Assembly (NCBI GenBank): GCA_032622095.1
Contig: CP136062.1
Location: forward strand, 140,944,351-141,008,350
Source: Siphonodentalium dalli
Lineage: Eukaryota; Mollusca; Scaphopoda; Gadilida; Siphonodentaliidae
Direction: 5' to 3'
Length of the DNA: 64,000 nt
Shown: positions 24,401-63,814 of the stretch, in pieces
Layout of the letters: every line of letters starts with the position of its first letter
Numbering within the stretch: position 1 is the stretch's first letter
The notes under the pieces: model-generated
The model's input: the letters and a program-made list of their open reading frames with translations, nothing else
What the model was told of the DNA's origin: nothing
The model's database searches: none
Made by a program: the position numbers and the translations under genes

Positions 24401-27400
24401 CTGAATGAGTGCTATTTCTCAACAGTTTACCGACAAATGGTATAATTCATTCCGGCTCCGATTCCGGCATAACATTTTTAATCAACGGCGCACAAATATA
24501 TTTGACGATTTAACATCCAAACAGTGATCAAAACTAATAGGGAATGCGGGGTAACAATCATTGATACCTTTTGATATCGTATCCTCGTTATCAAATTCAC
24601 CTTTCAGAGTATTTGTACGGCCTTAATGATTAAAATAACATGAGAAATAAACTGACTTGTGTTGTGTTTACTACGACGAAAATAGGTGTACACGGAAGCA
24701 ACGTAATTAATTCGTCGCGCGATTTCACCGTGCGAACTCCTTTCTGCATATATTACAGGCGGCACACTTAGATTTCTTATCTTTCTTTGAAAAATATTTC
24801 CACACAGGACTCGTTTGTTCGTCGTGTTCTGCCATGATTACAGGAAGTTGTGACAACCGAAACTACGGGTTTTCCCAACTTACCACGGTTGTCATTTCCG
24901 GTTTTTCCCCCCGACAACTGAAACCGAACTGATTCCACGGTTAACCGCCAATCTCTACCCTGCATGGAGTTTGCTGCATAGGCACAACAGCCAACATATA
25001 TACAGGTATGGTTAAAGGTTCCACATAGGGGTGTCCTAGTAGCTTTGAAGAGGGTAACCACCTACTAGAAAACAAATAAGGCTATCTGCTAGCTGTACAA
25101 ATGTACATATGGCCAGAGTTTTCTCAATGCTTGAAATCATTCAGCTGTGTTAGCAAATATTGGTAAGACTGTCCAGTCATACCCAGAAATATGCCCATGA
25201 CTTTAGGGCCCTGAAATTTGGGCATTTAATTTATGATTTGGGTATAGAACCATGAATCAATCGGGTGGTCACCCAAAAGATCCATGTGAAGTTTAGCGAC
25301 GATCGGACAAGTAGGGTGTCGTCTGTAGGGTGTACCAAAGGATTTAGTCATACAAAGAGTAAAATCCAAGATGGCCACTGGCGGCAATGTTTTTCAACAA
25401 AATTCAGAAATTTTGATGCTCCCATCTAGAGGTCACCCTGATGATTTATATGAATGTTGGTGATGATCAGATGAGGGATGTGGTCTGTGGTTGTGCCCAA
25501 GGATTTAGTCATGCAAAGAGTAAAATCCAAGATGTTTTATGTCAATACTAACATCCATGACAAATTTCATAATGATCAGACGAACACTCCGGCCTGTAGC
25601 CTGTGCTAGTGGATTGAATTTTGAAATCCAAGATGGTTGCTGGTCGCCATGTTTTTGGCCGACTGACCCCAAAATGACCCATTCCCATCTACATGTCAAT
25701 TCAATAGCCATGACAAATTTCATAATGATCCGACCAAAGGTACGACTTGTAGCCCGTGCCAAACGATTTAGTCATGCCAAACGATTTAGTCATGCAAAGA
25801 GTAAAATCCAAGATGTCTGCCAGTGGCCATGTTTTATGGCCAAATGGCCCCAAAATGACTCGTTCCATCAAAATGCTTGATTTGATATCTGTTCTTGGGT
25901 AATAATTGGATCAATCGCTATTATTAATGAAAGTTTGGTCTTGTTATTCTCTGATAGATCTTAAAGAAATATTATGTACTTGTTGGGGTGCGTGAAACTG
26001 ATAAGTTAGTGCTCAGGTGCTATGCCAACTGGAAGAATTTAGCTTTCTACCAACATCGCCGAAAATCTCAAGCAAATCGACCACAACACTCCATAGAAAA
26101 CATTGTCTGAACTACGCTCAATTGTAAATATTTACTACTCGATTCGGGATGCATCTATCGGCGATAAACTAATGAAACCCATTTTGCCATCGATAGTCGC
26201 TGCATTTAATTAGTATATAAGAATGACGGTGTGTGTTGTCAATTTGGATATAATATTTGTAAAATTAACTACTTTGAACAAGATTATTCTCGATTTCTAT
26301 TTGATCACCCTACTGGAGTGTTTCACATCACTTTAATATATACTACCTTGTCCTTATGAGCCATCAGGACATCCCAAACTTGCTCTATCTGGTTGGGGTA
26401 TACCCTCACACTATTCTGCATAAAATTCTGAAATGAATATTATAAAATTGATGCATATAACCTGTAAATACATTAAGGCTAATATGGATAGTGAGTGGCC
26501 TCTAATTTGTATCCCACAACTGATGGCCAATTTATCAAGATTTATTAAAACATTGAAAGTTTTCAGATGAAACAAGAATTGGCATACCCCAACACTGCCA
26601 AATTGAAACATGGTTAGGATGGAAACCAATTATAAAGTAAACAAAGAATGATGACTCTAGAATGGAAAATTAAACAACAACATTGGGCACACTTTTGAAA
26701 CCAGTCATGAGGGCGAACCTCAATATCCGGTAACCCATGGCTGAGATATTTGCCTGTACAGACAAAAACACCCACTATTTCAAGATGAATATAGAAGGAT
26801 AAATAAAACGCGAACAACATCTGTTGCTATTTTTTTTAAAGCAGTCATGATGGTGAACTTCCAGTGCTGGCCTTATGAAAAATCTGCAGGGGCTAAAATT
26901 CGCCCTCGCCAACATACTTTGCAGGGGCTAAAATATTTTGCAGGGGCAATTTCTGTTTTATGGGGTATTTATGTTGTAACATATGAAATACAAGTAAACT
27001 GACATATGTCATATTGCATATAACTTATTATGTGGTAAGTGATAATATTTAAATTTAATTAATTTATAATCATATATTAATTGTGAAATTATCAATGAAT
27101 GTTGTATAACTTATCAATGTTTAATAGAGTACTTTTATAAATGTTATACCATGTCTTGCATATATGGTATTGTTGTGTTTGTTCCTTTATGCCTGATCCA
27201 AGTGACCTACATGTATAATGGTTAACCAGAATCAGTCAATCATTATAATATATTTATATCATATATTACATGCTGTTATACTGTATAATACATGTATGAG
27301 GTGACATCATAAGATATTATTGTAAGTTAACCAGAATCAATCATTATGCCATACATATATTGTACATACATGTTTGTGTTTGTTCCTTTATACCTGAGTG

Positions 27401-30400
27401 ACCAAGTTAGTTACCTAACCAGAATCAATCATTATATCATGCATTTATTTGTTCCATACTTTTATCTATATAATCCATCGGTACATTCGCGGCTTCCGTA
27501 CATTTGTGAAATTTCGTCCACTTCTATCGCGTCAAAACATACATTATTCCGTACATATCATAAATTAAATCACTTCTATGTTTGTATCATCTCATAACCC
27601 ATCAATGCTATGTATAAATCACTCATTTCATGTAATTAATAGCACGATATCGCGATATTTATTCTTTGTTTTCGTCACTTCATTCAACTCATTTGTTTAC
27701 ATGTCAGCGAGCACTGTTGCGCGATTGGCGGATTCCTTCGTAGCCCCACCCATCGCTGTCAACAGCGCTCATCAAACCTTGTCGGTAAGGTATGATTTGC
27801 GGGTAGTACTGCACGTTCACAGTTAGGTCATGTAATCGTCAGTCTGTCACTGGTGACGGGTGTGTAGCATGGTTTTACCTAATTAGATATACCGGTGGCA
27901 GCCGACTGTTAACATAGCATGTGTCTCCTGCTTCAAATATGCGATGTCGCGATGCCTTATATGTTTTCAAACGGATAACTCATCAAAATTACTGCAAAAG
28001 TATGTTCGGTAGTGAATGTTGCGCGAGCGATATATCGCCCACGCCAAATTGAAATTGCGCGGGCGACGCGCGAGCGATAAAATCGCTCGCGCCATATTGC
28101 CAGGCCTGAACTTCCATTCCAAATTTCATTGAAATCGGATAACCAATGGCTGAGATATAGATCTGCGTGGACAGACAAACCGAAAGAGTCAATGACACTG
28201 TAGCTCAACTTGGGGCGGCATTAATTTTAAACTGAGCAGTCAATATAATGATAAAGAAGAATGAAAGTCAAAAAGTTTCAGTAAAGAGATTGTATTAAGT
28301 AGATGAACTTATTTTCATTTCAAACATGTCTCCAATAAATGTGGACTGCAGGGTGTGCCGATGGATTCAAATGTGAAATCCAAGATGGATGCTGGTGGCC
28401 ATGTTTTTTAACGAATTTCAGGAAAAATTTGATGGTTCCCATCTAGTGGTCAATAAGAAGATCGATTTGAATTTTGGTGACGATCGCATGAAGGATGTGG
28501 TCTGCAGGACGTGTCAAATGATTTAGTCATGCAAAGAGTCAAACTGACCTATTCCCCTATATTCTTTGTTTACATCTTTACAAACTAGCTCAAAACAGCT
28601 CAACAAGTAAAATAAGAGAATACGAACCACAAACTTTGCTTTCTTTTTAGGAATGTTTGGGTAATCTTTGAGCTTGTGTAGAACTGGTTTTAACTTTGGA
28701 TTGTTGCACTTTGCTATAGCTGCTTCAACTTGCTGAAAGGACAAATTTGTTTATAAATACAGAAGTGGTGAAACAAAAAGTACTAAACAGGATTTAACCC
28801 TTTACCCAACAACCCATTTACCCTGTGCCAATGCATTCTCTTATATATGCGAGTCGACCATAGGTCGCCTCGCATATATAAGAGAATGCATTGGCTTAAC
28901 ACATATTAAATTGTCAAAGAATGTAGAAAAATATTATAAAAATTGCTAAAAAATGTGAGAAAAAATTATAAATTTGTTAAAGAATGTAAGAAAAAATGGT
29001 AAAAAGTGTCTTAAAATTTTAAAGAATTTTTTTAGGCCAATGCATTCTCTTATATATGCGAGGCGACCTATGGTCGACTCGCATATATAAGAGAATGCAT
29101 TGGCACAGGGCATAACTGTAACCATCACAATGTGGTCAATGAACCGGTTCCAATGATATCCATATGTGTATGGTGTTATTGGGATATACGAAGATATTTT
29201 AGGCTGCTGAAACTTTATTTGGGCGTTTTTGGCCGTTCTGTTGGGTAAAGGGTTAAGGAGCTTATTCTCACTTATAATGATGTCTCTAGAAAGTGTATTT
29301 ATATTACCCTTGTAAAAACTGCAGTCATCACCTAAAAACCCAGAAACTGCATCACATGGTAATTGACCTTGTCTGGCCATGCAAATATTTCGGTAGATCA
29401 TTATATAGCTTGGACATTTACAGTATGTAACCACCATTTCCTAATAACTCTGGTTGGAATTGTAATGTTTGGAAATAGCTTGGAGGGAACTTTTATGGGA
29501 AAAACTTGGTTCTGGTAGGTCATAGACCAGCCTGGATTCTAGAGGTTTCAAATTGGGAGAAATAACTTCTCCCTATATGTTTATTAGGGAGAAGTTGACA
29601 GTTACCAGGGAGTGGTCATAAAGGCTGAAGTTCAATTTGCATCAGGCTTTTAGATTGGTGAAATTTGGGCACATCATGATGAACACCAGGTTTACTATGT
29701 GCCCCGAAAGTACCATATATAGGTTTATAAATTTTGGGTGTATTCTGAAGGGTGGTGTGTATATCAGTGAGTTATTTCTTAAATAAGTTAGTAAAATATG
29801 TCATCTTGCCTAATAAAAGTTTTATTAAAGTTCTAACTAAACATACATAAATAAAATAATAAGTTAGTATTCTCAGTATGCTTCTCTTGTTTTGGATATG
29901 TCAAATGCTCTTCATTTTACAATATGAATGACTTGCTTGACAATCTTGCATGGATCATTCAAACTTGCAAAGACAGAAATAAAATGTAGAAAAAAATGCC
30001 TTTCAGGTTAATATGTTGGGCACATTGTTCATCATCAATGTCAATTTTAAAGGCCTGAGGTACAAATGGAGGGTGAGGTACTGAACTGATCACAAGCAGT
30101 ATCGAAAACAAATCATAATAATAAACACGAAACTTTAAGATTTTGACTGGAGACCATGAATTTCAATAGCCATTAATAACTTATTGTGCATAAACTTAAT
30201 GAACTGAAATAATTATGGTGCTATTTACTTTCAAGCCTGCAAGCCTGTGTCTGTCATTTGCAGAATGAGGTCCCCAGAGGGTGATTGTATTGATGCTACG
30301 CTGCAAAGAGGGCTAGCATCACCAAATTCACCCTCTGGGGACCTCATTCTGCTTAGGCCTCATCTTCTGGGAAGTATCTATATTGTCTCAAATTAACATT

Positions 30401-33400: not shown

Positions 33401-36400
33401 GTGCCGACTACGAGTTATCTCGTAGGAGCTTTATAACACGTTTCATCTTTCATTTGACCCGGATTTGATGGACAAAAAATGTATAAAGCACAATAAATCC
33501 TTTATATATACACAATGTGTCCGGGAATGGTCTAGTCGCACATGTATATCATGGTTCAGGGACGTACAGAAGAGGTCCTGGTGAATTGGAGTATCCTACC
33601 AAGATTTATATCTGGACCCCACCCCACGGGCTGTGGGAATCGTTGTATCTCAAGCCATCGTAATTATACATATAAAATCGATCAATGGGATCGTTGGGCA
33701 TGTATTGGCGCATACACCAACATTGCTTACGGTTTGTGTTATTATTTATGTGGTATGAACATTACTACAAGTTAACTCGTAGTAGCAGTCCCCATGGAAC
33801 TGTTTACTACGAGTTAACTCGTAGTGGCAGTGAACGTGTTAAGCTCTGAATAATATTTTAACCTACCCAGTTTTGCTAAAGTTGGTTAATTTAAAATGAA
33901 AACCGCATGCACTCTGAAAAAGATTCACTTTTTCTAAGTTAAAACCTAGCAGCTGTTCTTTGTCAAAATTCATTGGATTGAACTAAAATTTTAATTATGC
34001 TGTACATTCTCAATGTAGACCATGGACAATATTCATGAATTTTTTTCAAGAGAGTTTAACCCTTTAACCGCTGAATGGTTCTTCCATTTAGTTATAAAAT
34101 GAAATGTTGGAATGACCTAAATTATTAATTTGAGGGGTGTTCTGATATTAATGCAGAAGACAATAATATTCATATTCAGAGGGGAATATTCAGATAATAG
34201 CAAACAATTTTAGGTATTTGGTAAACTTTATGTTATCTGAGCATTCCCCAGGTACTTGTAAGTGATTATTTGGTCAAAGGGTTGAGTTATCATCTGGAGA
34301 AACAAATGAAAGTGTCAGTGACTCTGTAGATCAATATTAGGAGGGGATAATGTTATATGTTACAGCCATGGAGCGATAAGAAATGAGGAAAGTTGAAATG
34401 AGTAATACAGAGGACAACCAGAAGATCCATTATGTGGAGGTACAGAAAAATGTAACAAACAAACCTGTCGTCCAGACCATCCTATCAATCTAACCAGGTA
34501 CCCAATGTACATCTGGGGTAGATGGATTACTGGCTGTATTAGCTCTGCCAGTTTAGTGACTTGCTGACTACAGTAGAGACACAGTGAAGTGGAAACATCA
34601 CTGTAATAATCTTCACGAAGTTCACATGAGTTTGAATCCGCACTGATTTGCACTGTGCATATGCATACCAACGCGCAATGTGAGAATGCCTCCTCTTTGT
34701 ACTATGTGCAGGTCGGTGCTAGGGTGTTGCCTTCAGATCAGGTGCGGACATTAATGGCTGTCCATGGCAGGCCTGGAAATCTGAGGAGGGCTATTTGATA
34801 GCCCTCCTACAGCCCTCGCAACATTGACTCCAGGAGGGCTATTTTTAGCCCCCCTAAAGCCGGTCAAATCTTGCCAACATGAAATTCATTTTGTGAAATT
34901 AACCAGTTAGGACATATAACAAAAACTTTATCCTAATCTCTGACATCTTCTGGTATGTTCTCATCAACAAAGAACCAAACAGTGTTCAATACCACTAGAA
35001 ATATCCACTCGATTTCACTGGACAGATAACATTAATTCAATAGATGAGGGGAGTTAAGTCTAGGTGGGCTAATATTAGCCCTTCTAAGGCAACCCAAGAG
35101 GGATATTAATTTTCAGCCCTCTTCAAATTATCAAACCGCCATGCCTGAGTATCAACTCGGGTAAAATATCAAAACTGTAAAAGTTGAGGAGGGCTATAGC
35201 CCTCCTAGGCAAATCTAGGAGGGCTATTAATAGCCCTCCTGGATTTTCTAGATCGCCAGCCCTGCCATGGTTGGGATTAATTGATTACAAAATTTTGGCT
35301 GTAGGGCATGCCAAAATATTTAGTCATGCAAAGAGTAATATCCAAGATGGCTGCTGCTGACCATGATTTAAACAAATGACAGAAATATTTGATGGCTCCA
35401 ATCTACAGAGAACCCTGTAGAGCCATATTAAGTTTGGTGAAAAATCAGATGTGCTGAAGGATTAAGTCATTACAAAAAGTAAAAAAGGGCTCCCATCTTG
35501 TAGTCACCCCGAAGATGCATTTGAAGTTTGGTGACAATTGATGAGGCATGTGATCTGCAGGGTGTGGCAAAGGATTTAGTCATGCAATGTCAGAGTAAAA
35601 AATCCAAGATGGCTGCCAGCGGCCATGTTTTTGATCGAAAATCATTAAAATTTGATAGCTCCCATCTAGAGCCTAGAGGTGATCCTAAACATGCCTGTCA
35701 ATTTTCAAGAGATTTCTCCAATAATGCTGCCAGCCATTTTTTTCAAAACTCAGAAAAAATTGATAGGTCCCATCTATAGGTCAGCCTGAAGATCTGTATG
35801 TAGTTTTGATTCAATTGATAAAAAATGTTGGCTGTAGACGTGCCGAAGGATTTAGTAATAGAAAGAGTAAAATCCAAGATGGATGACAGTGGCCATGTTT
35901 TTCATAGAAAATCGTGCATATTCAATAGCTACCATCAAGATGTCACCCCAAAGATTTATGGAAGTTTGGGATCAACAGAATGAAAAATGTGGAATGTCAG
36001 CTGTGCCAAATGTTTTTGTCATGCAAAGAGTAAAATCCAAGAGGCTGCAAGCAGCAGTTCAAATTTGATAGCTCTCATCTAGAGTTGATCCTCAGTAAAC
36101 ATGGCGATGCATGTATATTTTCAAAACAATTTTCCACTAAATGTGGGATGTAGGGTGTGCCGATAAAGTAAAATGTGAAATCGAAGATGGTTGCTGGCGT
36201 TTTTAATAAATTTCGGAGGTCTAGAATTCACCCCGAAGATCCATATGAAGTTTGGTGACAATCGGATGAGGGATGTGGCCTGTAGATTGTGCCAAAGGTA
36301 ATTGTTGACAGACGCCAACCAATGGCAATATCTCAAACATCACAAAATCAAGTTGAGCTAAAAATGCACGGGTATTTTAATATCAAGAAAAGGGGAATAA

Positions 36401-48136: not shown

Positions 48137-48676
48137 GTCCAACTGAACTTGATACATCTACTCTAAATGAAGAATAGCTGTCATGTTTCGTCACTAATTT
48201 ATGGCAGTTCACAACAACTGTATTAAATTCATCCCGGACATAGTCAACAACATTTTTCACAGTGGTATCTGGCGTTAATCGGGAAAGAAATATTGAGAAG
48301 GTGGAGTGTGATTTCACTGTCTTCAAATTGGCTGACTCTGCGCGATGATCTAATAACAAGGCTTCGTCTTGTCCTTGATGACCGTGAGTTTCTGTTGTCT
48401 GGCAGAGAGTATCGTTCAGTCATAATAGGTGTTTTCAAGACTTCAGCATACGTTGTCTTACTTCTACTCTTCGTAGTTGACCACTCATTCTCTGTGCTAT
48501 TTACCGATGTACATAATCCTTTCTGTCGCGTCTCCACAGATGATAGGGAAGTCTCATTTTCACGGCGTGTAGGCCTACAATGATCTGCTGCAATCCAACC
48601 AGGAGCGATAAATTTGGTTTTCCATTTACTCTCGTTATTAGAGACAGTTACTGGCATTTGCATTCCCTCTGCATTA
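48137..48676 (-). pseudogene. ORF1-like protein, segment 3 (with a frameshift)
   Basis: The frame starts AEGMQMPVTVSNNESKWKTK and continues through a charged linker (TTYAEVLKTP). A one-base shift near 48300-48360 moves it into the frame encoding FSIFLSRLTPDTTVKNVVDY, then HDSYSSFRVDVS. The SRLTPDTT...DSYSSFRV pattern is characteristic of an ORF1 nucleic-acid-binding domain seen in many invertebrate retroelement proteins (recognition from memory, not searched). Confidence 0.7.
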
Positions 48677-48772
48677 TTATCTCAACTTACTTTGTAAGTT
48701 TGAGCTATTGCCATGGGTTGGCGTCCGTCGTCCGTGTGTGCGTGTGTCCGTCAACAATTTCCTTTCCCGCGG

Positions 48773-51700
48773 GCTACAGGTCATACCTTTGGTCTGATCT
48801 TTATGAAATTTTTCTTGAATGTTGATATTGACATGTAGATGGGAACGAGCCATTTTGGTGTCATTCGGCAAAAAAACATGGCCGCCAGCAGCCATTTTGG
48901 ATTTCAAAATTCAATCCATTGGCGCGGGCTACAGGTCATACTGCTCGTCTGATCATCATGAAATTTGTCATAGATGTTAATATTGACATGTAGATGGGAA
49001 CGAGTCATTTTGGGGTCGTTCGGCCAAAAAACATGGCTGCCAGCAGCCATCTTGGATTTTACTCTTTGCATGACTAAATCCTTTGGCGCGGGCTACAGGT
49101 CGTAGCTTTGGTAAAATCTTCATGAAATTTGTCATGGATGTTAACAATGACATGTAGATGGGAACGAGTTGTTTTGGGATCATTCGGCCAAAAAACATGG
49201 CCGCCAGCGGCCATTTTGGGTTTCAAAATTAAATCCATTGGCGCGGGCTACAGGTCATACTGCTCGTCAGATCATCATGAAATTTGTCATGGATGTTAAT
49301 ATTGACATGTAGATGGGAACGAGTCATTTTGGGGTCGTTCGGCCAAAAAACATGGCCACCAGCAGCCATCTTGGATTTTACTCTTTGCATGACTAAATCC
49401 TTTGGCACGGGCTACAGGTCGTAGCTTTGGTGAGATCTTCATGAAATTTGTTATGGATGTTAACAATGACATGTAGATGGGAACGAGTCATTTTGGGGTC
49501 ATTCGGCATGAAAAAACATGGCCGCCAGCAGCCATCTTGGATTTTAATCTTTGCATGACTAAATCCTTTGGCGCGGGCTACAGGTCGTAGCTTTGGTTAG
49601 ATCTTCATGAAATTTGTCATGGATGTTAACAATGACATGTAGATGGGAACGAGTCATTTTGGGGTCATTCGGCCAAAAAACATGGCTGCCAGCAGCCATC
49701 TTGGATTTTACTCTATGCATGACTAAATCCTTTGGCGCGGCCTACAGGTCGTAGCTTTGGTCAGACCTTCATGAAATTTGTCATGGATGTTAACAATGAC
49801 GTGTAGATGGGAACGAGTCGTTTTGGGGTCATTCGGCCAAAAAACCTGGCCGCCAGCAGCCATCTTGGATTTTACTCTTTGTATGACTAAATCCTTTGGC
49901 GCGGGGCTACAGGTCGTACCTTTGGTCCGATCTTTATGAAATTTGTCATGAATGTTGACATTGTCATGTAGATGGGAACGAATCATTTTGGGGTCAATCG
50001 GCCAAAAAACATGGCCACCAGCGGCCATTTTGGATTTCAAAATTCAATCCATTGGCGCGGGCTACAGGTCATACTGCTCGTCTGATCATCATGAAATTTG
50101 TCATGGATGTTAATATTGACATGTAGATGGGAACGAATCATTTTGGGGTTGTTTGGCCAAAAAACATGGCCACCAGCAGCCATCTTGGATTTTACTCTTT
50201 GCATGACTAAATCCTTTGGCACGGGCTACAGGTCGTAGCTTTGGTCAGATCTTCATGAAATTTGTCATGGATGTTAACAATGACATGTAGATGGGAACGA
50301 GTCATTTTGGGGTCATTCGGCATGAAAAAACATGGCCGCCAGCAGCCATCTTGGATTTTAATCTTTGGATGACTAAATCCTTTGGCGCGGGCTACAGGTC
50401 GTAGCTTTTGTTAGATCTTCATGAAATTTGTCATGGATGTTAACAATGACATGTAGATGGGAACGAGTCATTTTGGGGTCATTCGGCCAAAAAACATGGC
50501 TGCCAGCAGCCATCTTGGATTTTACTCTTTGTATGACTAAATCCTTTGGCGCGGGGCTACAGGTCGTACCTTTGGTCCGATCTTTATGAAATTTGTCATG
50601 GATGTTAATATTGACATGTAGATGGGAACGAATCATTTTGGGGTTGTTTGGCCAAAAAACATGGCCACCAGCAGCCATCTTGGATTTTACTCTTTGCATG
50701 ACTAAATCCTTTGGCACGGGCTACAGGTCGTAGCTTTGGTCAGATCTTCATGATATTTCATATGGATGTTAACAATAACATGTAAATGGGAACGAGTCAT
50801 TTTGGGGTCATTCGGAAAAAAAACATGGCCACCAGCGGCCATCTTTGATTTCAAAATTTAATCCATTAGCATGGGCCACAGGTCGTACTCTTCGTCTGAT
50901 CATCATGAAATTTGTCATGGATGTTAATATTGACATGTAGATGGGAACGAGTAATTTTGGGGTCATTCGGCCAAAAAACATGGCCGTCAGCAGCCATCTT
51001 GGATTTTACTCTTTGTATGACTAAATTCTTTAGCACGGGCTACAGGTCGTACCTTTAGTCTGATCATCATAAAAATTTTCATGGATGTTAACAATGACAT
51101 GTAGATGGGAACGAGTCATTTTGGGGTCATTCGGCCAAAAAACATGGCCGCCAGCAGCCATCTTGGATTTTACTCTTTGTATGACTAATTCCTTTAGCAC
51201 GGGCTACAGGTCGTACCTTTAGTCTGATCATCATAAAATTTGTCATGAATGTTAACAATGACATGTAGATGGGAACGAGTCATTTTTGGGGTCATTCGGC
51301 CAAATAACATGGCCACCAGCAGCCATCTTGGATTTTACTCTTTGTATGACTAAATCCTTTAGCACGGACTACAGGTCATACCTTGAGTCTGATCATGATG
51401 AAATTTTTCATGGCTGTTGAAATTGGAATGTAGATGGGAACAAGTCATTTTGGGGTCTTTCGGACGAAAAACATGGCCACCAGCGGCCATCTTTGATTTC
51501 AAAATTCAATCCATTAGCACGGGCTACAGGTCGTACTGTTCGTCTGATCATCATGAAATTTGTCATGGATGTTAATATTGACATGTAGATGGGAACGATT
51601 AATTTTTGGTCATTCGGCCGAAAATATGGCCGCAGCAGCCATCTTGGATTATACATTTTGTATGACTAAATCCTTTAGCACGGGCTACAGGTCGTACCTT

Positions 51701-54700
51701 TAGTCTGCACGCCCGATAACCCTATAGGCTGGTGGCTGTGGGTAGGCATATTGCTGTAGTGATATTGTGTGGCGGTTTTCACATGTGTGCTCAGAATTTT
51801 AGGAAAATCATAAATTCTGAAATCCACCCGGCGAGAACGCTTATGGCATTAGATAGGACCATGACTGGTGTATTCATACACCATTTGTGATAGCCGTGTG
51901 CCTTTAGATATATTTTTTATTACTTAATTTGTCGAATTTTACAACCGGTTTTTGTCGTTTATCAAAGAAACTACATAATATAAATGGTAGAAATCTCGAT
52001 ATGTAGGCTTCATGTACACATGTCACTAGATGCACATTCCACTGATACAATGAAACCAAAATCCACAATAAAAGACATATTTTTCGTGGGAAAATATCGA
52101 TTTTCCTGAGTGTCATATCACAAATTTATGACAGGCATATTGCCTCCGCAGATAGGCTCATGGCAAAGCACAAACTTGTTATGATAGGCAAGTGGCATTG
52201 TTGATGGGCACGTGGTAAATATTGACCAAGCTCCAATTTAGCACTTTAAAGCCAACAATATGCAACTTCTGGCATATATTATTTTATAAATACACTCTGG
52301 AATGATTATTCATTCATATAAAATAGACACATAAAATAGAACAACACATATGTGTGCATTACGTGAAAATTAACGCACGAGTTTGTTACGCGGAATGTTA
52401 CAACGTTACAACGATGGGGCGCGAGTTGTAACTTGCAGCATAATTTAATTTTCTCACCACGCACACATAATGTGTGGTTGTGTTTTATTACACACCCACT
52501 AGAACTATTCAACATCGAGATTTAGCGTTTATTGATTCGTTTCTGTCGTAATTTATAGCCATTTTTATCAAACTGATAGGCGACTTTATTAATAAAGTTT
52601 GTAGTTCTTGTTCAAAAGATAAAGTTGACGTAATTTGTGACTCGTGACGTCGACGTTTTCCGTATTGTATACGTGTTGAATACGTTGGTAAAGATATTGT
52701 ATGGGCTACACTGATCAATATAAGAAAATTAACACAATAGGTGTACCATATAGTACTTTACCACTTCCGCAGTCGACCAATGCCCAGCATGAGTATGGCG
52801 TTTATACAGGGTATGAGACTGTAAAGGAGTTGTCCAGCACTAACAGGTGACCAAAACTATATTTGAGAGTGTAAAATATAAAATATGGGAAAGCAGTGCA
52901 TATGTGTCTTCGTAACGAGTTTCCTACAAATTGTTACAAATTTTTGAGAACTACGTAAATATATGTGTAAATATATTTGTCCTCTATAGACTCGAAAACG
53001 GCTGCACCGATTGGGCTCAAACTTCCCATCTAAGGGTAAAAACCCACGGGAATGGTCGTCGCGGCGTTTTGGAGAAGCTCAGAGCACCCGTTCTCCACTC
53101 TCAGTCACAAAAACGTCACTTCGTGGTTAATCGCGTTGATAGTTAAAGAGCGTTCCTATCCGCAGTGTCATTGATAAAGAGCTTATGTGTGTAATGTGAT
53201 TCTTACGTCTGGGTCTGGGCGTGTGCGTTTAAGACTGTATCCAGACATGAGCGTGTTGTGTGACGACATTCCCAACACCAAGCAGGGACAAATACCTATT
53301 AGCCAGCATCAAGGCGAGTCTTGTGACGTATTAATTCAAATGCTTTCGATCAAACAATATTCTCTGTCGCACTCATATTTCGTCATCTCTACGAATCCAC
53401 TGCATTCGACCTATTTTTAGAACGCAACACATGGTACCATAATTACGTCGCGTTGGTGATGGGGTGCACGGCGGGATTAATTTAAATATGTCATGTTGGT
53501 AACAATATCTAGCCGAGAATTCCTCAAACATACAGACGAATGCGAACAGCAAATTTAAAAATTGGTCACTTGACCTCCCAATGAATTCCAGGGAATGCGT
53601 GCCCATTATCGGGCCATTGTGTGTGTCGCGGTCGCGCAATTTTAACACTTTCGAGGTAAATACACGTGGTTGTGAATTACGTCACGCCACGTGGATCCAG
53701 GCGGAAGTTAACCTGACCCTTCCGATGCCGCGTACGTTATTTTTGACTGACCGCAGTGCCCGATCCGCCGAATGTGAACATGTTATCAACTGTTATGGCA
53801 GTCCGTGGCCCACGGCAGTCAATTGCCGTGTCGAATATTGAAGCCTACTGATCAATTCAAGGTCAAATCGGGTAAAACTGGCGGATTTCGACGAAATTTT
53901 ACACCTAGGTGCAGCATACGTGTCTCGGAAGCTGTTGCAATTGCTTTCTCGAACAAAGCCATGAGACGAACCACGCCAGTGGCTGGCTAACCTGTTCTTT
54001 CGCAGATCGCCAAAATAAAACCGGCTATAAATGGTAGCTATATTATCTATATGTAGTGGACCATGACCATTCAGCCTGAAAACTGCACAAAGCTGGCATG
54101 GCTCATTTTTTTACATTAAAATATGCTGAATAGCTATACTTTCCCCATTTTCAATTAAAACCCCATTTTGCAAGTTTGTCACAGTTAAAACGTTTTACAT
54201 TACAACTGCCAGTATTTAGTTCTTGGAAATAAGTAGTGTATGTTTCCTGACTCATGGACGATGTGAATTTACAACACTGTGAATAATATAGCATCACAAA
54301 GGCGTTTTTCTCAGACTAAAACCACTATTGATCATTGTGCTACATGCGTGTCTGTGTTTGCCATATGTCTATCCTCTCGGTATTTGGCTATTCAATATGC
54401 CTACCACAAAATATTGACGGGACAGTATGTCAAATAGCTTTTTTTAACTGAAAAATGCATTATTTGAGTTCGCAGTTATGTTTGTCTTGTCACTGAGATA
54501 TTATACCACATGTATCCACGAAAATAACTTACAAATCGACATGCTGAGCAAATTTGGGAGTTTGTTTACTTTGAAAGTTTGAAAAAGTCGACAAAATCCG
54601 ATATATTTTGTCTTCAAACAACGTATTCTACAATGCCAAATTGTTACCAAGAGGTTCAACTTATAAATCAGACATTACTGCATCTTACGTGATAATAAAA

Positions 54701-57700
54701 TCTGACCTTTTACATCGTATTTGATCAATTATAATCTAAAACATCCCTTGGTTGAGAAACCCGCCACGCAATATCACTACAGCAATATGCCTACCCACAG
54801 CCACCAGCCTATAGGGTTATCGGGCGTGGTCTGATCATCATAAAATTTGTCATGGATGTTAACAATGACATGTAGATGGGAACGAGTCATTTTGGGGTAA
54901 TTCGGCCAAAAAGCATGGCCGCCAGCAGCCATCTTTGATTTCAAAATTCAATTCATTAGCACGGGCTACAGGTCGTACTGTTCGTCTGATCATCATGAAA
55001 TTTGTCATGGATGTTAATATTGACATGTAGATGGGAACAATTAATTTTGGGGTCATTCGGCCAAACAACATGGCCACTGGCAGCCATCTTAGATTTTACT
55101 CTTTGCATGACTAAATCCTTTAGCACGGGCTACAGGTCGTACCTTTGGTCAGATCATCATTAAATTTGTCATGGATGTTAACAATGACATTTAAATGGGA
55201 ACGAGTCATTTTGGGGCCATTCGGCCAAAAAACATGGCCACCAGCAGCCATCTTGGATTTTACTCTTTGTATGACTAAATCCTTTAACACGGGCTACAGG
55301 TCGTACCTTTAGTCTGATCATCATAAAATTTGTCATGGCTGTTGAAATTGGAATGTAGATGGGAACGAGTCATTTTGGGGTCATTCGGAAAAAAAACATG
55401 GCCACCAGCGGCCATCTTTGATTTCAAAATTTAATCCATTAGCATGGGCCACAGGTCGTACTCTTCGTCTGATCATCATGAAATTTGTCATGGATGTTAA
55501 TATTGACATGTAGATGGGAACGAGTAATATTGGGGTCATTCGGCCAAAAAACATGGCCGTCAGCAGCCATCTTGGATTTTACTCTTTGTATGACTAAATT
55601 CTTTAGCACGGGCTACAGGTCGTACCTTTAGTCTGATCATCATAAAAAAATTCAGGGATGTTAACAATGACATGTAGATGGGAAACGAGTCATTTTGGGG
55701 TCATTCGGCCAAAAAACATGGCCGCAGCAGCCATCTTGGATTTTACTCTTTGTATGACTAAATCCTTTAGCACGGGCTACAGGTCATACCTTTAGTCTGA
55801 TCATCATAAAATTTGTCATGGATGTTAACAATGACGTGTAGATGGGAACGAGTCGTTTTGGGGTCATTCGGCCAAAAAACCTGGCCGCCAGCAGCCATCT
55901 TGGATTTTACTCTTTGTATGACTAAATCCTTTGGCGCGGGGCTACAGGTCGTACCTTTGGTCCGATCTTTATGAAATTTGTCATGAATGTTGACATTGTC
56001 ATGTAGATGGGAACGAATCATTTTGGGGTCAATCGGCAAAAAAACATGGCCACCAGCGGCCATTTTCGGTTTCAAAATTCAATCCATTGGTGCGGGCTAC
56101 AGGTCATACTGCTCGTCTGATCATCATGAAATTTGTCATGGATGTTAATATTGACATGTAGATGGGAACGAATCATTTTGGGGTTGTTTGGCCAAAAAAC
56201 ATGGCCACCAGCAGCCATCTTGGATTTTACTCTTTGCATGACTAAATCCTTTGGCACGGGCTACAGGTCGTAGCTTTGGTCAGATCTTCATGAAATTTGT
56301 CATGGATGTTAACAATGATATGTAGATGGGAACGAGTCATTTTGGGGTCATTCGGCATGAAAAAACATGGCCGCAGCAGCCATCTTGGATTTTAATCTTT
56401 GGATGACTAAATCCTTAGGCGCGGGCTACAGGTCGTAGCTTTGGTTAGATCTTCATGAAATTTGTCATGGATGTTAACAATGACATGTAGATGGGAACGA
56501 GTCATTTTGGGGTCATTCGGCCAAAAAACATGGCTGCCAGCAGCCATCTTGGATTTTACTCTTTGTATGACTAAATCCTTTGGCGCGGGGCTACAGGTCG
56601 TACCTTTGGTCCGATCTTTATGAAATTTCTCATGAATGTTGACATTGTCATGTAGATGGGAACGAATCATTTTGGGGTCAATCTGCAAAAAAACATGGCC
56701 ACCAGCGGCCATTTTGAATTTCAAAATTCAATCCATTGGCGCGGGCTACAGGTCATACTGCTCGTCTGATCATAATGAAATTTGTCATGGATGTTAATAT
56801 TGACATGTAGATGGGAACGAATCATTTTGGGGTTGTTTGGCCAAAAAACATGGCCACCAGCAGCCATCTTGGATTTTACTCTTTGCATGACTAAATCCTT
56901 TGGCACGGGCTACAGGTCGTAGCTTTGGTCAGATCTTCATGATATTTCATATGGATGTTAACAATAACATGTAAATGGGAACGAGTCATTTTGGGGTCAT
57001 TCGGAAAAAAAAACATGGCCACCAGCGGCCATCTTTGATTTCAAAATTTAATCCATTAGCATGGGCCACAGGTCGTACTCTTCGTCTGATCATCATGAAA
57101 TTTGTCATGGATGTTAATATTGACATGTAGATGGGAACGAGTAATTTTGGGGTCATTCTGCCAAAAAACATGGCCGTCAGCAGCCATCTTGGATTTTACT
57201 CTTTGTATGACTAAATTCTTTAGCACGGGCTACAGGTCGTACCTTTAGTCTGATCATCATAAAAATTTTCATGGATGTTAACAATGACATGTAGATGGGA
57301 ACGAGTCATTTTGGGGTCATTCGGCCAAAAAACATGGCCGCCAGCAGCCATCTTGGATTTTACTCTTTGTATGACTAAATCCTTTAGCACGGGCTACAGG
57401 TCGTACCTTTAGTCTGATCATCATAAAATTTGTCATGAATGTTAACAATGACATGTAGATGGGAACGAGTCATTTTTGGGGTCATTCGGCCAAATAACAT
57501 GGCCACCAGCAGCCATCTTGGATTTTACTCTTTGTATGACTAAATCCTTTAGCACGGACTACAGGTCATACCTTGAGTCTGATCATGATGAAATTTTTCA
57601 TGGCTGTTGAAATTGGAATGTAGATGGGAACAAGTCATTTTGGGGTCTTTCGGACGAAAAACATGGCCACCAGCGGCCATCTTTGATTTCAAAATTCAAT

Positions 57701-60000
57701 CCATTAGCACGGGCTACAGGTCGTACTGTTCGTCTGATCATCATGAAATTTGTCATGGATGTTAATATTGACATGTAGATGGGAACGATTAATTTTGGGT
57801 CATTCGGCCGAAAAACATGGCCGCAGCTGCCATCTTGGATTATACATTTTGTATGACTAAATCCTTTAGCACGGGCTACAGGTCGTACCTTTAGTCTGAT
57901 CATCATAAAATTTGTCATGGATGTTAACAATGACATGTAGATGGGAACGAGTCATTTTGGGGTAATTCGGCCAAAAAGCATGGCCGCCAGCAGCCATCTT
58001 TGATTTCAAAATTCAATTCATTAGCACGGGCTACAGGTCGTACTGTTCGTCTGATCATCATGAAATTTGTCATGGATGTTAATATTGACATGTAGATGGG
58101 AACAATTAATTTTGGGGTCATTCGGCCAAACAACATGGCCACTGGCAGCCATCTTAGATTTTACTCTTTGCATGACTAAATCCTTTAGCACGGGCTACAG
58201 GTCGTACCTTTGGTCAGATCATCATTAAATTTGTCATGGATGTTAACAATGACATTTAAATGGGAACGAGTCATTTTGGGGCCATTCGGCCAAAAAACAT
58301 GGCCGCCAGCAGCCATCTTGGATTTTACTCTTTGTATGACTAAATCCTTTAACACGGGCTACAGGTCGTACCTTTAGTCTGATCATCATAAAATTTGTCA
58401 TGGCTGTTGAAATTGGAATGTAGATGGGAACGAGTCATTTTGGGGTCATTCGGAAAAAAAACATGGCCACCAGCGGCCATCTTTGATTTCAAAATTTAAT
58501 CCATTAGCATGGGCCACAGGTCGTACTCTTCGTCTGATCATCATGAAATTTGTCATGGATGTTAATATTGACATGTAGATGGGAACGAGTAATATTGGGG
58601 TCATTTGGCCAAAAAACATGGCCGTCAGCAGCCATCTTGGATTTTACTCTTTGTATGACTAAATTCTTTAGCACGGGCTACAGGTCGTACCTTTAGTCTG
58701 ATCATCATAAAAAAATTCAGGGATGTTAACAATGACATGTAGATGGGAACGAGTCATTTTGGGGTCATTCGGCCAAAAAACATGGCCGCCAGCAGCCATC
58801 TTGGATTTTACTCTTTGTATGACTAAATCCTTTAGCACGGGCTACAGGTCATACCTTTAGTCTGATCATCATAAAATTTGTCATGAATGTTAATAATGAC
58901 ATGTAGATGGGAACGAGTCATTTTTGGGGTCATTCGGCCAAATAACATGGCCACCAGCAGCCATCTTGGATTTTACTCTTTGTATGACTAAATCCTTTAG
59001 CACGGACTACAGGTCATACCTTGAGTCTGATCATGATGAAATTTTTCATGGCTGTTGAAATTGGAATGTAGATGGGAACAAGTCATTTTGGGGTCTTTCG
59101 GACGAAAAACATGGCCACCAGCGGCCATCTTTGATTTCAAAATTCAATCCATTAACACGTGCTACAGGTCGTACTGTTCGTCTGATCATCATGAAATTTG
59201 TCATGGATGTTAATATTGACATGTAGATGGGAACGATTAATTTTGGGTCATTCGGCCGAAAAACATGGCCGCAGCAGCCATCTTGGATTATACATTTTGT
59301 ATGTCTAAATCCTTTAGCACGGGCTACAGGTCGTACCTTTAGTCTGATCATCATAAAATTTGTCATGGATGTTAACAATGACATGTAGATGGGAACGAGT
59401 CATTTTGGGGTAATTCGGCTGAAAAGAATGGCCGCCGGCAGCCATCTTTGATTTCAAAATTCAATTCATTAGCACGGGCTACAGGTCGTACTGTTCGTCT
59501 GATCATCATGAAATTTGTCATGGATGTTAATATTGACATGTAGATGGGAACAATTAATTTTGGGGTCATTCGGCCAAAAAACATGGCCGCTGGCAGCCAT
59601 CTTAGATTTTACTCTTTGCATGACTAAATCCTTTAGCACGGGCTACAGGTCGTACCTTTGGTCAGATCATCATTAAATTTGTCATGGATGTTAACAATGA
59701 CATTTAAATGGGAACAAGTCATTTTGGGGCCATTCGGCCAAAAAACATGGCCGCCAGCAGCCATCTTGGATTTTACTCTTTGTATGACTAAATCCTTTAA
59801 CACGGGCTACAGGTCGTACCTTTGGTCGAATCATTATGAAATTTGTCTTGACTTTTGACATTGACATGTAGATGGGAACGAGTCATTTTGGGGTTATTCA
59901 GCATTAAAACATGGCTGCCAGTGTCCATCTTGGATTCTACTCTTTGCATGACTAAAGCTATCAAATGTTTTTGCATTGTTGGAAAACATAGCCGCCAGCA
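48773..60000. repeat. Satellite-like array with higher-order duplication
   Basis: Monomer spacing, measured on GCTACAGG at 48773, 48928, 49092, 49247, 49411 and 49577, is 155, 164, 155, 164 and 166 bases. Multi-monomer blocks recur: about 49740-51700 matches 55810-57890, with roughly one extra monomer in the second, and 54840-55790 matches 57900-58860 and part of 59350-59830. These indicate segmental amplification on top of monomer tandems. Confidence 0.85.
51708..54828. mobile_element. 3.1-kb element with 68-bp inverted ends, 5-bp duplication
   Basis: The termini CACGCCCGATAACCCTATAG and their complement match for 68 bases with one mismatch (51708-51775 and 54761-54828). GTCTG is duplicated at 51703-51707 and 54829-54833. 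The interior has no transposase-like frame. Five-bp duplications occur in Transib and some hAT groups; the CAC start would fit Transib but the rest of the end does not match its usual heptamer, so I leave it unassigned. Confidence 0.88.
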
Positions 60001-60165
60001 ACCATCTTCGATTTTACTTTTATTTACATGTATATATATATCTCTTCATGTTGATAAACTAGTATTAGACATTCAACTTTCCACATTCCTAATCACTCCA
60101 TCGACAGTAACACATTAAATTATTCCCTTTCCAAGTTGAGCTACAGTATCATTGACACTTTCATT

Positions 60166-60960
60166 TTATTGATTATGAAAGGGATGAATACTAAAATATA
60201 TATAATTGTATGTTCTGCATTGTATGCAGTACAAAATAGCTCAAACTTATTTGGGTCCACTGTCGCTGTATAAGTTCGAACCACAGTAAAATCTAGCGTC
60301 CATATCGCAACTGAACATTGTAAATTCTCCGACAATAGACCGACGTATTGCGCTTGGAAACTTGAAAGATTTGATGTTGCTACGTCAACAGTCACTGAGC
60401 ATGTGTGCGTCCGTGATTATTGTCGGTGGCATTGTTTGATCTCGTTTAGCGGTCGCATGCATTTGCTGTACTCGGCAGTTCAGGGTACAAATTATTTTCA
60501 CATATTCTTATCTAATCACGATTCGGATGAAACGCATGCGTGTTTGGCATTGGAAAGTGGAAACATATGCCTCTATATAATAAGTCTGTTTGGTTCGCGC
60601 AAGATAATTACACACAAATCTGATAATCTGAGTAACGACAATAACACTAACTAGATTGAAAGTGTTTGTTGCAACAACAAAAAACATACTGAATTCCAAG
60701 ATGATTTAAATTGTTTTGTATGTTCGTTTGTTTGTTTGATACACCCAGTCACTCAGTAAGACAATCAGCTGCACATTTTGGCTCACACTATTGTGTATTG
60801 GCAATAAAGTTCACGGAGACTGTCGACGAACGCCATTTGTTTGCAGATTGGCAGTCACACATCGCCTTCCGTCATTAACCTCGTTAAAAAAAATCCACCG
60901 CATCGCGGTAATGTCAGCACATTTTACGTGATGCATTACCGCATGTCACTGCTCGTCTTC
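60166..60960. repeat. Copy of the Harbinger-like interior inside the array
   Basis: It is nearly identical to 62609-63352 apart from a small deletion in the latter. Its left border is a second array terminus (AGTATCATTGACACTTTCATT, 60145-60165). Its right border passes straight into an array monomer at an ACTGC shared by both. The open frames on both strands are matched between copies but not protein-like. Confidence 0.8.
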
Positions 60961-62405
60961 ATCATGAAATTTGTCATAGATGTTAATATTGACATGTAGA
61001 TGGGAACGAGTCATTTTGGGGTCGTTCGGCCAAAAAACATGGCTGCCAGCAGCCATCTTGGATTTTACTCTTTGCATGACTAAATCCTTTGGCGCGAGCT
61101 ACAGGTCGTAGCTTTGGTCAAATCTTCATGAAATTTGTCATGGATGTTAACAATGACATGTAGATGGGAACGAGTCATTTTGGGGTCATTCGGCCAAAAA
61201 ACATGGCCGCCAGTGGCCATTTTGGATTTCAAAATTCAATCCATTGGCACGGGCTACAGGTCATACTGCTTGTCTGATCATCATGAAATCGTTCGGCCAA
61301 AAAACATGGCTGCCAGCAGCCATCTTGGATTTTACTCTTTGCATGACTAAATCCTTTGGCGCGAGCTACAGGTCGTAGCTTTGGTCAAATCTTCATGAAA
61401 TTTGTCATGGATGTTAATATTGACATGTAGATGGGAACGAGTCATTTTGGGTTCGTTCGGCCAAAAAACATGGCTGCCAGCAGCCATCTTGGATTTTACT
61501 CTTTGCATGACTAAATCCTTTGGCACGGGCTACAGGTTGTAGCTTTGGTCAGATCTTCATGAAATTTGTTATGGATGTTAACAATGACATGTAGATGGGA
61601 AAGAGTCATTTTGGGGTCATTCGGCCAAAAAACATGGCCGCCAGCAGCCATCTTGGATTTTACTCTATGCATGACTAAATCCTTTGGCGCGTCCTACAGG
61701 TCGTAGCTTTGGTCAGACCTTCATGAAATTTGTCATGGATGTTAACAATGACTTTAGGTGGGAACGAGTCGTTTTGGGGTCATTCGGCCAAAAAACCTAG
61801 CCGCCAGCAGCCATCTTGGATTTTACTCTTTGTATGACTAAATCCTTTGGCGCGGGGCTACAGGTCGTACCTTTGGTCCGATCTTTATGAAATTTGTCAT
61901 GAATGTTGACATTGTCATGTAGATGGGAACGAGTCATTTTGGGGTCAATCGGCCAAAAAACATGGCCACCAGCGGCCATTTTGGATTTCAAAATTCAATC
62001 CACTGGCGCTGGCTACAGGTCATACTGCTCATCTGATCATCATGAAATTTGTCATGGATGTTAATATTGACATGTAGATGGGACCGAGTCATTTTGGGGT
62101 TGTTTGGCCAAAAAATATTATCTTGGATTTTACTCTTTGCATGACTAAATCCTTTGGCACGGGCTACAGGTCGTAGCTTTGTCAGATCTTCATGAAATTT
62201 GTTATGGATGTTAACAATAACATGTAAATGGGAACGAGTCATTTTGGGGTCATTCGGCAAAAAAACATGGCTGCCAGCGGCCATCTTAGATTTAACTTTT
62301 TGCATAACTAGGCCTTTCAACTTTCCACATTCCTAATCACTCCATTGACTTTAACACATGAAATTATTCCCTTTCCAAGTTGAGCTACAGTGTCATTGAC
62401 ACTTT
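60961..62405 (-). repeat. Second array block with its own terminus
   Basis: About eight more monomers, including partly deleted ones near 61290 and 62110, end with a full terminal module. The array end is therefore present twice, at 60120-60165 and 62360-62405. Confidence 0.8.
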
Positions 62406-62537
62406 CATTAGATTGATTGTTGTGATTATTCATTGGCATATTTGAAACATTATTGCGGTTTGATTCTAGTTCCTTTGCTGGTACGTCGACTGGCGTGTAT
62501 CTCTCTTCTCGTACAACACCACCACTACTCATATTTA
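62406..62537 (-). pseudogene. ORF1-like protein, segment 2
   Basis: The frame continues from segment 1 across the element at 62538-63814: NMSSGGVVREERYTPVDVPA, then an asparagine-rich linker ending NNHNNQSN at the second insertion. It is in frame with segments 1 and 3 after removal of one copy of each target duplication. Confidence 0.65.
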
Positions 62538-63814
62538 GGCCAAAACAAAAAATAGGTGTGTTTGGGGTCTCCCGACCGACCCTATAAAAAGTCGCCGACC
62601 CTAATTTTTTTATTGATTATGAAAGGGATGAATACTAAAATATATATAATTGTATAACTTAATTGGGTCCACTGTCGCTGTATAATTTCGAACCACAGTA
62701 TAATCTAGCGTCCATATCGCAACTGAACATTGTAAATTCTCCGACAATAGACCGACGTATTGCGCTTGGAAACTTGAAAGATTTAATGCTGCTACGTCAA
62801 CAGTCACTGAGCATGTGCGCGTCCATGATTATTGTCGGTGGCATTGTTTGATCTCGTTTAGCGGTCGCATGCATTTGCTGTACTCAGCAGTTCAGGGTAC
62901 AAATTATTTTCACATATTCTTATCTAATCATGATTCGGATGAAACGCATGCATGTTTGGCATTGGAAAGTGGAAACGTATGCCTCTATATAATAAGTCTG
63001 TTTGGTTCGCGCAAGATAATTACACACAAATCTGATAATCTGAGTAACGACAATAACACTAACTAAATTGAAAGTGTGTGTTGCAACAAAAAAAAACATA
63101 CTGAATTCCAAGATGATTTAAATTGTTTTGTATGTTCGTTCATGTGTTTGATACACCCAGTCACTCGGTAAGACAATCAGTTGCACATTTTGGCTCACAC
63201 TATTGTGTATTGGCAATACAGTTCACGGAGACTGTCGACGAACGCCATTTGTTTGCAGATTGGCAGTCACACATCGCCTCCCGTCATTAACCTCGTTAAA
63301 AAAATCTACCGCATCGCGGTAATGTCAGCACATTTTACGTGGTGCATGTCACTGCAGTACTAGCATTCGTTAACGTTGGTAATGTGGTGGTACCGCGAAT
63401 GGTCCGGTGGTACCGCGGTACCACTCGGTAGTGAAACCGCGAATCGGCGGTATCACGCGGTATTATATTTATATTTGTGTATTAATATGATCCATATATT
63501 CCATCCATATGAATGGGAAAGGTTCCATTTACCATTACATAAAGGCAACATTGCTTGATTTGCAACCAAATCTGCCCAAAAAGGTATGTTTCAGATAGAA
63601 AGGTATGTTTACAAATTAACTATAGAGATAATAAGTACTTTTGGTGTCCACTTTATGCTCATAAACCCTTTTACTGCACCTTAATTGAGGGAAAACCCCG
63701 GAAATTTCCAAATACTAAAAGTTTCTTAAAAAAAAAATAATTAAAAAACCTACCTACCTACCCTAATTTTTTAGTGGTAGTTGACCCCAAACACACCTAT
63801 TTTTTGTTTTGGCC
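62538..63814. mobile_element. PIF/Harbinger-like element, copy 2, in the ORF1-like gene
   Basis: Inverted ends of about 33 bases (GGCCAAAACAAAAAATAGGT and its complement) are flanked by TTA (62535-62537 and 63815-63817). The subterminal CCGACCGACCCTAT and CTACCTACCTACCC motifs tie it to the element at 20995-22735. No transposase is seen. Confidence 0.85.

Follow-up and report, generated by a model that had tools for sequence, protein, structure and literature searches.

A Repeat Family of Siphonodentalium dalli as a Probable Non-Autonomous Helentron with Expanding 160-bp Monomers

We analyzed 64,000 nucleotides of the genome of the scaphopod Siphonodentalium dalli (GenBank assembly GCA_032622095.1, contig CP136062.1, positions 140,944,351 to 141,008,350 of the forward strand), referred to below as the window, and a family of elements with ~160-bp tandem monomers that it contains. 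The layout described for HINEs in PMC7492417 and PMC4067079 runs from a subterminal inverted repeat (subTIR) through an inverted repeat (IR), a microsatellite and tandem repeats to a second subTIR and a palindrome. Because the ends of the window family match this layout, we conclude that it is very probably a HINE, i.e., a non-autonomous Helentron (a rolling-circle element), in which the internal repeats of 160 bp undergo expansion once the element has inserted. With its thousands of copies, the genome allows the transition from mobile element to satellite to be traced from one copy to the next: pairs at one site differ in monomer number, the starting monomers are ordered, and blocks are duplicated inside single arrays. 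The family offers a well-resolved example and corrects a false reading of target duplication.

Ends and insertion sites of the element

From 5′ to 3′, the element consists of T|TAG, subTIR, IR, GTCC microsatellite, monomers, subTIR, palindrome, and TTCAT|T. The family subTIR at the 5′ end is CTCAACTTAC, followed by the complementary IR, ATTGCCATGG, and a GTCC-rich stretch; at the 3′ end, the second subTIR is followed by the palindrome AGTGTCATTGACACT and TTCAT. In the first window copy (copy 1), the two subTIRs (TAGCTCAACTTA / TAAGTTGAGCTA) are 12 bp long and 100% complementary. Subterminal inverted repeats of 11 to 15 bp at both ends, an IR beside the 5′ subTIR and a 3′ palindrome, all characteristic of HINEs, are therefore present, and stem-loop folding is predicted for both element ends. 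The monomers are mostly 155 and 164 bp long. As in other HINEs, no coding capacity was recognized, in agreement with the original prediction: the longest open frame in the monomer array spans 117 amino acids (aa), and three of the array frames gave no Pfam match. An Rfam search of 48600-62500 found nothing. Related terminal modules bound both smaller complete copies and the large array, as had also been proposed. Besides the large array, the window holds the following members of the family:

7796-8952, minus strand: complete HINE copy (copy 1) with six monomers
34306-36360, minus strand: complete HINE copy, more diverged, with degraded monomers and extra internal sequence
28180-28506, minus strand: HINE relic with 3′ end and one monomer; only the 3′ end was detected at the search sensitivity used
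25333-25875, minus strand: monomer stretch with neither end detected at the search sensitivity used

To characterize the junctions, we fetched 60 loci. Searches had located both ends at 20 of them, which were chosen for this reason; the other 40 were drawn from the 85 exact 5′ ends in the C1 list past 24.7 Mb, following their order as far as 85.1 Mb and passing over 11 that were clustered. The 5′ end was located by pattern in 59 of the 60 loci and the 3′ end as well in 43 of these; copies whose 3′ end was reached measured 0.3-2.0 kb, and 16 of the 59 had no recognized 3′ end within ~2.2 kb. The 43 loci and four window rows gave 47 records, and dropping L010, L021, and the inner window end as same-site repeats left 44 independent copies. 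The left junction carried T at −4, −3, and −1 in 44, 43, and 44 of the 44 copies, respectively, with C at −6 in 27, A at −5 in 24, and CATT at −6 to −3 in 18; one of the copies, L019, has lost a TAG base, and its register is off by one. At the right junction, no position of TTCAT deviated in more than 2 of 44 copies.

Two loci, L001 and L010, occupy one site of a host repeat, of which 11 element-free copies were found. Ten of these have at most one mismatch and read TCWCTTGTTAAGCAC unbroken through the T|T junction. Because the empty copies read straight through, the element entered between two T's at this single host site, adding nothing else. The flanks of L013 rejoin to a perfect palindrome (read by eye), giving a second such site. 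Insertion at T|T in a T-rich site without target duplication is a further HINE property. The original prediction that the family moves as a unit is borne out by the defined ends and by the empty sites, which show insertion.

The same data remove the 5-bp flanking duplication that had been claimed for each copy and speak against a cut-and-paste miniature inverted-repeat transposable element (MITE) with a 5-bp target-site duplication (TSD) and a tandem core. Such a MITE is suggested by short inverted repeats close to both ends, by CATTW adjoining all three window copies, and by the best of the tested flank offsets, with an uncorrected P of 0.008. Nonetheless, the inverted repeats are subterminal and asymmetric, 5-mers within 10 bases were common to both flanks in 14 of 44 copies versus 14.3 expected from shuffled pairs (P = 0.64), a full 5-mer match at a fixed offset occurred in 0 or 1 of 44 copies at the offsets printed, and the 11 empty copies of one host lack a duplication. 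We consider the MITE highly improbable. A TSD was rejected at 54 offset pairs, with free offsets, and by the empty sites. Since the empty sites show insertion, the failed 5-mer test removes the duplication, not the mobility; and because junctions, shuffles, and empty sites show no duplication, the CATTW triplet of the window copies is best explained by a target preference (CATTWT) together with the TTCAT that belongs to the element itself.

Monomer arrays and their growth

The original prediction treated the large copy (48678-62408) as a 13.7-kb array of ~160-bp monomers. Monomers do fill most of 48771-62311, but they do not form one array:

48678-48770, plus strand: 5′ module of the large HINE, with subTIR TATCTCAACTTAC, complementary IR GTAAGTTTGAGCT, ATTGCCATGG, and GTCC-rich stretch
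48771-51707, plus strand: first part of the monomer array, with 18 monomer matches and the beginning of a split monomer
51708-54828, no strand: later-inserted terminal inverted repeat (TIR) transposon of 3,121 bp with 76-bp TIRs (96%), which splits one monomer
54829-59958, plus strand: second part of the monomer array, with 32 monomer matches, in which blocks recur at a distance of 17-19 monomers with 0-1% divergence
60065-60164, plus strand: inner 3′ module, with subTIR CAAGTTGAGCTA, palindrome AGTATCATTGACACT, and TTCAT
60165-60947, no strand: flank X, a dispersed repeat and the first of the two tandemly duplicated copies
60948-62311, plus strand: duplicated array tail of ~9 monomers, one of them broken
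62312-62408, plus strand: outer 3′ module, with subTIR CAAGTTGAGCTA, palindrome AGTGTCATTGACACT, and TTCAT
62419-62611, no strand: 193-bp stretch with ATTGATT on both sides (62412-62418 and 62612-62618; read by eye)
62612-63347, no strand: flank X′, the second of the two tandemly duplicated copies

The 5′ module is 93% identical to the end module of copy 1 over 56 bp. The TIR transposon, whose TIRs begin CACGCCCGATAACCC, is flanked by a GTCTG duplication at 51703-51707 and 54829-54833; three of its open reading frames were compared with Pfam without a match, and it has no recognized coding sequence. Behind the 50 monomer matches before it, the inner 3′ end (60145-60164) is followed by flank X, and ~9 further matches lie beyond. 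X recurs behind the outer 3′ end at 62608-63347, with 93% identity over 773 columns, and the two window copies of X share ~11 bases ahead of the start of the other listed matches (window position 62618 or later). From this arrangement, we infer that the array tail, 3′ end, and flank were duplicated in tandem, followed by insertion of the 193-bp stretch, which is missing from the inner copy of the duplication and is read as an insertion. Within the 13.7 kb, HINE sequence amounts to ~9.8 kb. We dropped the view of the window array as one unit; it contains the inserted TIR transposon and the second 3′ end. The X-type dispersed repeat itself is ~850 bp long (62619-63467 and 60175-60947), and a first look at the genome gave 2,311 candidates, 40 of which were scored.

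To determine how far long arrays keep the element ends, we sampled them from heuristic search lists, one of which scored 39 of 19,433 candidates; they are a sample and not a census. Among the ten places that scored highest beyond the window, nine had both ends. Six further long arrays were picked, of which four had both ends, one had no 3′ end within 1.2 kb, and one was unresolved. The array at C1:5.71 Mb, which has a run of 100 N at its left edge, was counted as unresolved. In total, both ends were present in 13 of the 17 long arrays checked at their edges, one end was lacking in 2, and 2 were unresolved; the expectation that terminal modules bound the arrays thus held for most but not all of them.

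These edges bear on whether the monomers are instead an ordinary satellite whose array edges abut common HINE ends by chance, for example, where HINEs insert into the satellite. One HINE, L008, has monomer sequence on both flanks, and some monomer stretches lack detected ends, as such a satellite would predict. However, the ends at the edges of the 13 arrays were in the right orientation, the first monomer is position specific (see below), and of the 32 monomer clusters listed from the beginning of C1, 16 lay within 3 kb of an exact 3′ end in the correct orientation, compared to 0-3 at six shifted positions; with exact ends only being listed, 16 is a lower bound. An ordinary satellite is, therefore, very unlikely, being scarcely more credible than the MITE.

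We next compared the monomers themselves, with monomer counts taken from a hidden Markov model. Monomer divergence was 14.0% within an element or array piece (62 groups) and 14.3% between them. The first monomers of 38 complete copies were 9% apart, and they differed by 14-15% from those at other positions. Complete copies thus inherit an ordered monomer set, since their first members resemble each other from copy to copy. Against this background, the large window array stands out: 42 of its 48 full monomers had their nearest relative in the same array, where ~11% would be expected from its share alone (48 of 449), while across all 449 monomers the nearest relative lay in the same group for 16%, versus 2% with shuffled labels. 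Its first monomer was closest to another copy's first monomer, i.e., it is the usual first monomer, and the array grew by block duplication. A second array, at C1:5899327-5915099 (15.8 kb; last 8 kb read unbroken, most of the remainder via alignments only), holds an eight-monomer block repeated at 0-0.6% difference. Both arrays analyzed monomer by monomer therefore hold near-identical blocks of several monomers.

The same-site pair L001 and L010 differs by one two-monomer block (6 versus 8 monomer matches), with matching monomers 0-3% apart. Because the two differ in monomer number at one site, core length changes after insertion, as the original prediction had held; the pair is direct evidence of such a change. 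It also bears on whether array length is set during rolling-circle replication, by slippage or repeated rounds, so that long arrays are born long by transposition. Whole Helitrons in tandem are known, as reported in PMC7492417, and Rep-bearing copies stand in tandem in the S. dalli genome. Nevertheless, the unequal lengths at one site and the near-identical blocks inside single arrays argue against this view, which we regard as unlikely, although far less so than the MITE or the ordinary satellite. Altogether, our data favor a HINE whose core expands in place.

Candidate autonomous partner and proposed mechanism

A search for Helitron-like genes yielded 151 domain matches, with 150 of 457 candidates scored. 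In the C8 Helentron, OTU, Rep, and PIF1 exceeded the cutoffs in one 2,552-aa frame, and an endonuclease match fell below its cutoff (22.9 versus 24.5 bits); its domains are those of a Helentron. One Helentron carries a HINE 3′ end within its 5′ part, and another carries a HINE 5′ end within its 3′ part; both are read as insertions. At L103:4542-4573, a HINE 3′ end is immediately followed by a polypyrimidine tract and an ATG that apparently starts a long Helentron frame. Two closely similar Helentron copies are followed by 174-bp tandem repeats that have a short core in common with the monomer (best matches at E ~8e-4), which is suggestive, but not proof, of descent. Tandem Helitron-like Rep domains ~8-16 kb apart occur at C1:114628540 and C1:114638548, at C6:36914596-36934946, and at C2:145183789 and C2:145199462, suggesting head-to-tail autonomous elements. 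A 10-kb piece separating two tandem Rep domains in a different type of Helitron on C1 (L083) was without HINE ends.

We propose that an endonuclease-bearing autonomous Helentron would supply Rep/helicase in trans and that the HINE ends would be recognized as stem-loops. In a settled copy, unequal exchange or replication slippage among the monomers could then drive expansion, and the outcome would be a satellite-like array bounded by old transposon ends. A more speculative extension, which we hold tentatively and consider less probable than its opposite, is that Helentrons may pick targets resembling their own 3′ junction, with the host CATTWT|T mimicking the terminal TTCAT|T as if a single nuclease site were used for both donor and target, and that arrays in this genome may reach satellite length inside recognizable ends, so that each long array would be a single datable expansion.

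Several results weigh against the identification of the family as a HINE with repeats that expand in place. An autonomous copy with the HINE's two ends was not found in the stretches around the C8 Helentron and ten others; these stretches covered both sides of the C8 Helentron and two others and 3.5-kb 3′-side pieces of eight more, placed by estimate, so that true ends may fall outside. Two of the 17 long arrays were without one end. Divergence showed only a weak fall with monomer number (62 elements or array pieces, rho = −0.27, P = 0.04; 37 complete elements, rho = −0.21, P = 0.22), and the data do not separate recombination from replication slippage. At the junctions, 7-mers were shared in 5 of 44 copies versus 2.2 expected (P = 0.04), with 0 remaining once the constant TTCAT was omitted, and the best of the 54 fixed offset pairs matched 90 positions versus 78.0 without any full 5-mer match.

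Related systems and further copies

Cg_HINE of Crassostrea gigas, as described in PMC7492417, shares with the S. dalli family the 5′ subTIR, complementary IR, GTCC-like microsatellite, ~165-bp tandem repeats, 3′ subTIR, palindrome, oligo-T target, and lack of a TSD, a likeness drawn from layout. Its longest array in that survey has 29.3 monomers, whereas one array here spans 15.8 kb. According to the same source, each of the 13 major repeat clusters studied in oyster has its arrays in HINEs. CgiSat01 (HindIII/Cg170) of C. gigas is likewise a satellite whose monomers are carried by Helitron/Helentron elements (PMC8268682); its longest arrays there comprise 89 monomers when element associated and 232 when standalone, and a model of expansion within the element is stated. 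In S. dalli, by comparison, both ends are kept in most of the long arrays sampled.

The earlier comparison with pearl elements was apt in architecture, and pearl was later recategorized as a non-autonomous Helentron (PMC7492417). The pearl-type elements of bivalves (CvA, CvE, CvG, MgE, and DTC84) resemble the S. dalli family in architecture and in ~160-bp core repeats according to their descriptions in PMC7492417, PMC5139131, and PMC11136912; unlike the long arrays here, their cores have at most 6 repeats. DINE-1 and DINE-TR1 of Drosophila are also alike by description, with subTIR, IR, 3′ stem-loop, TT target, and internal tandem repeats (DINE-1: PMC4067079). The BIV160 satellite of bivalves shares its monomer length with the HINE monomer (PMC5139131). 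In a comparison confined to primer sites, neither published BIV160 primer gave a better match to 3 kb of the array than shuffled primers did, and the forward primer site had no genome match at ≤3 mismatches.

The original prediction that a mobile element is turning into a satellite in place is supported, yet such a change has already been published for Helentrons of oyster and Drosophila; the idea that satellite arises from repeats within elements of this kind is in print in PMC8268682 and PMC7492417. The S. dalli family is accordingly a further HINE of the oyster type, abundant and with well-preserved long arrays, to which a general published idea applies. Across the 2.23 Gb searched (nine contigs), we counted 2,905 matches to the 5′ end, 153,490 to the monomer, and 18,611 to the 3′ end, the last resting on 27 bases and possibly including relatives with other cores. 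At C1:28900124-28919980, six exact HINE 5′ ends occur in the same orientation, and two of their spacings are exactly 5,637 bp; they may form a tandem array of some larger unit with HINEs inside it.

Two minor features of the window resemble parts of the element. A perfect palindrome, AGTGTCAGTGACACT, at 18575-18589 is like the HINE 3′ palindrome and aligns weakly with the 3′ module (23 bp, 87%); with no monomers adjoining, it is a possible further relic or relative. Beside copy 1, at 7500-7700, lies a different repeat whose core, GATCTGAACAAAAGTTGGTATG (reverse strand), recalls the monomer core.

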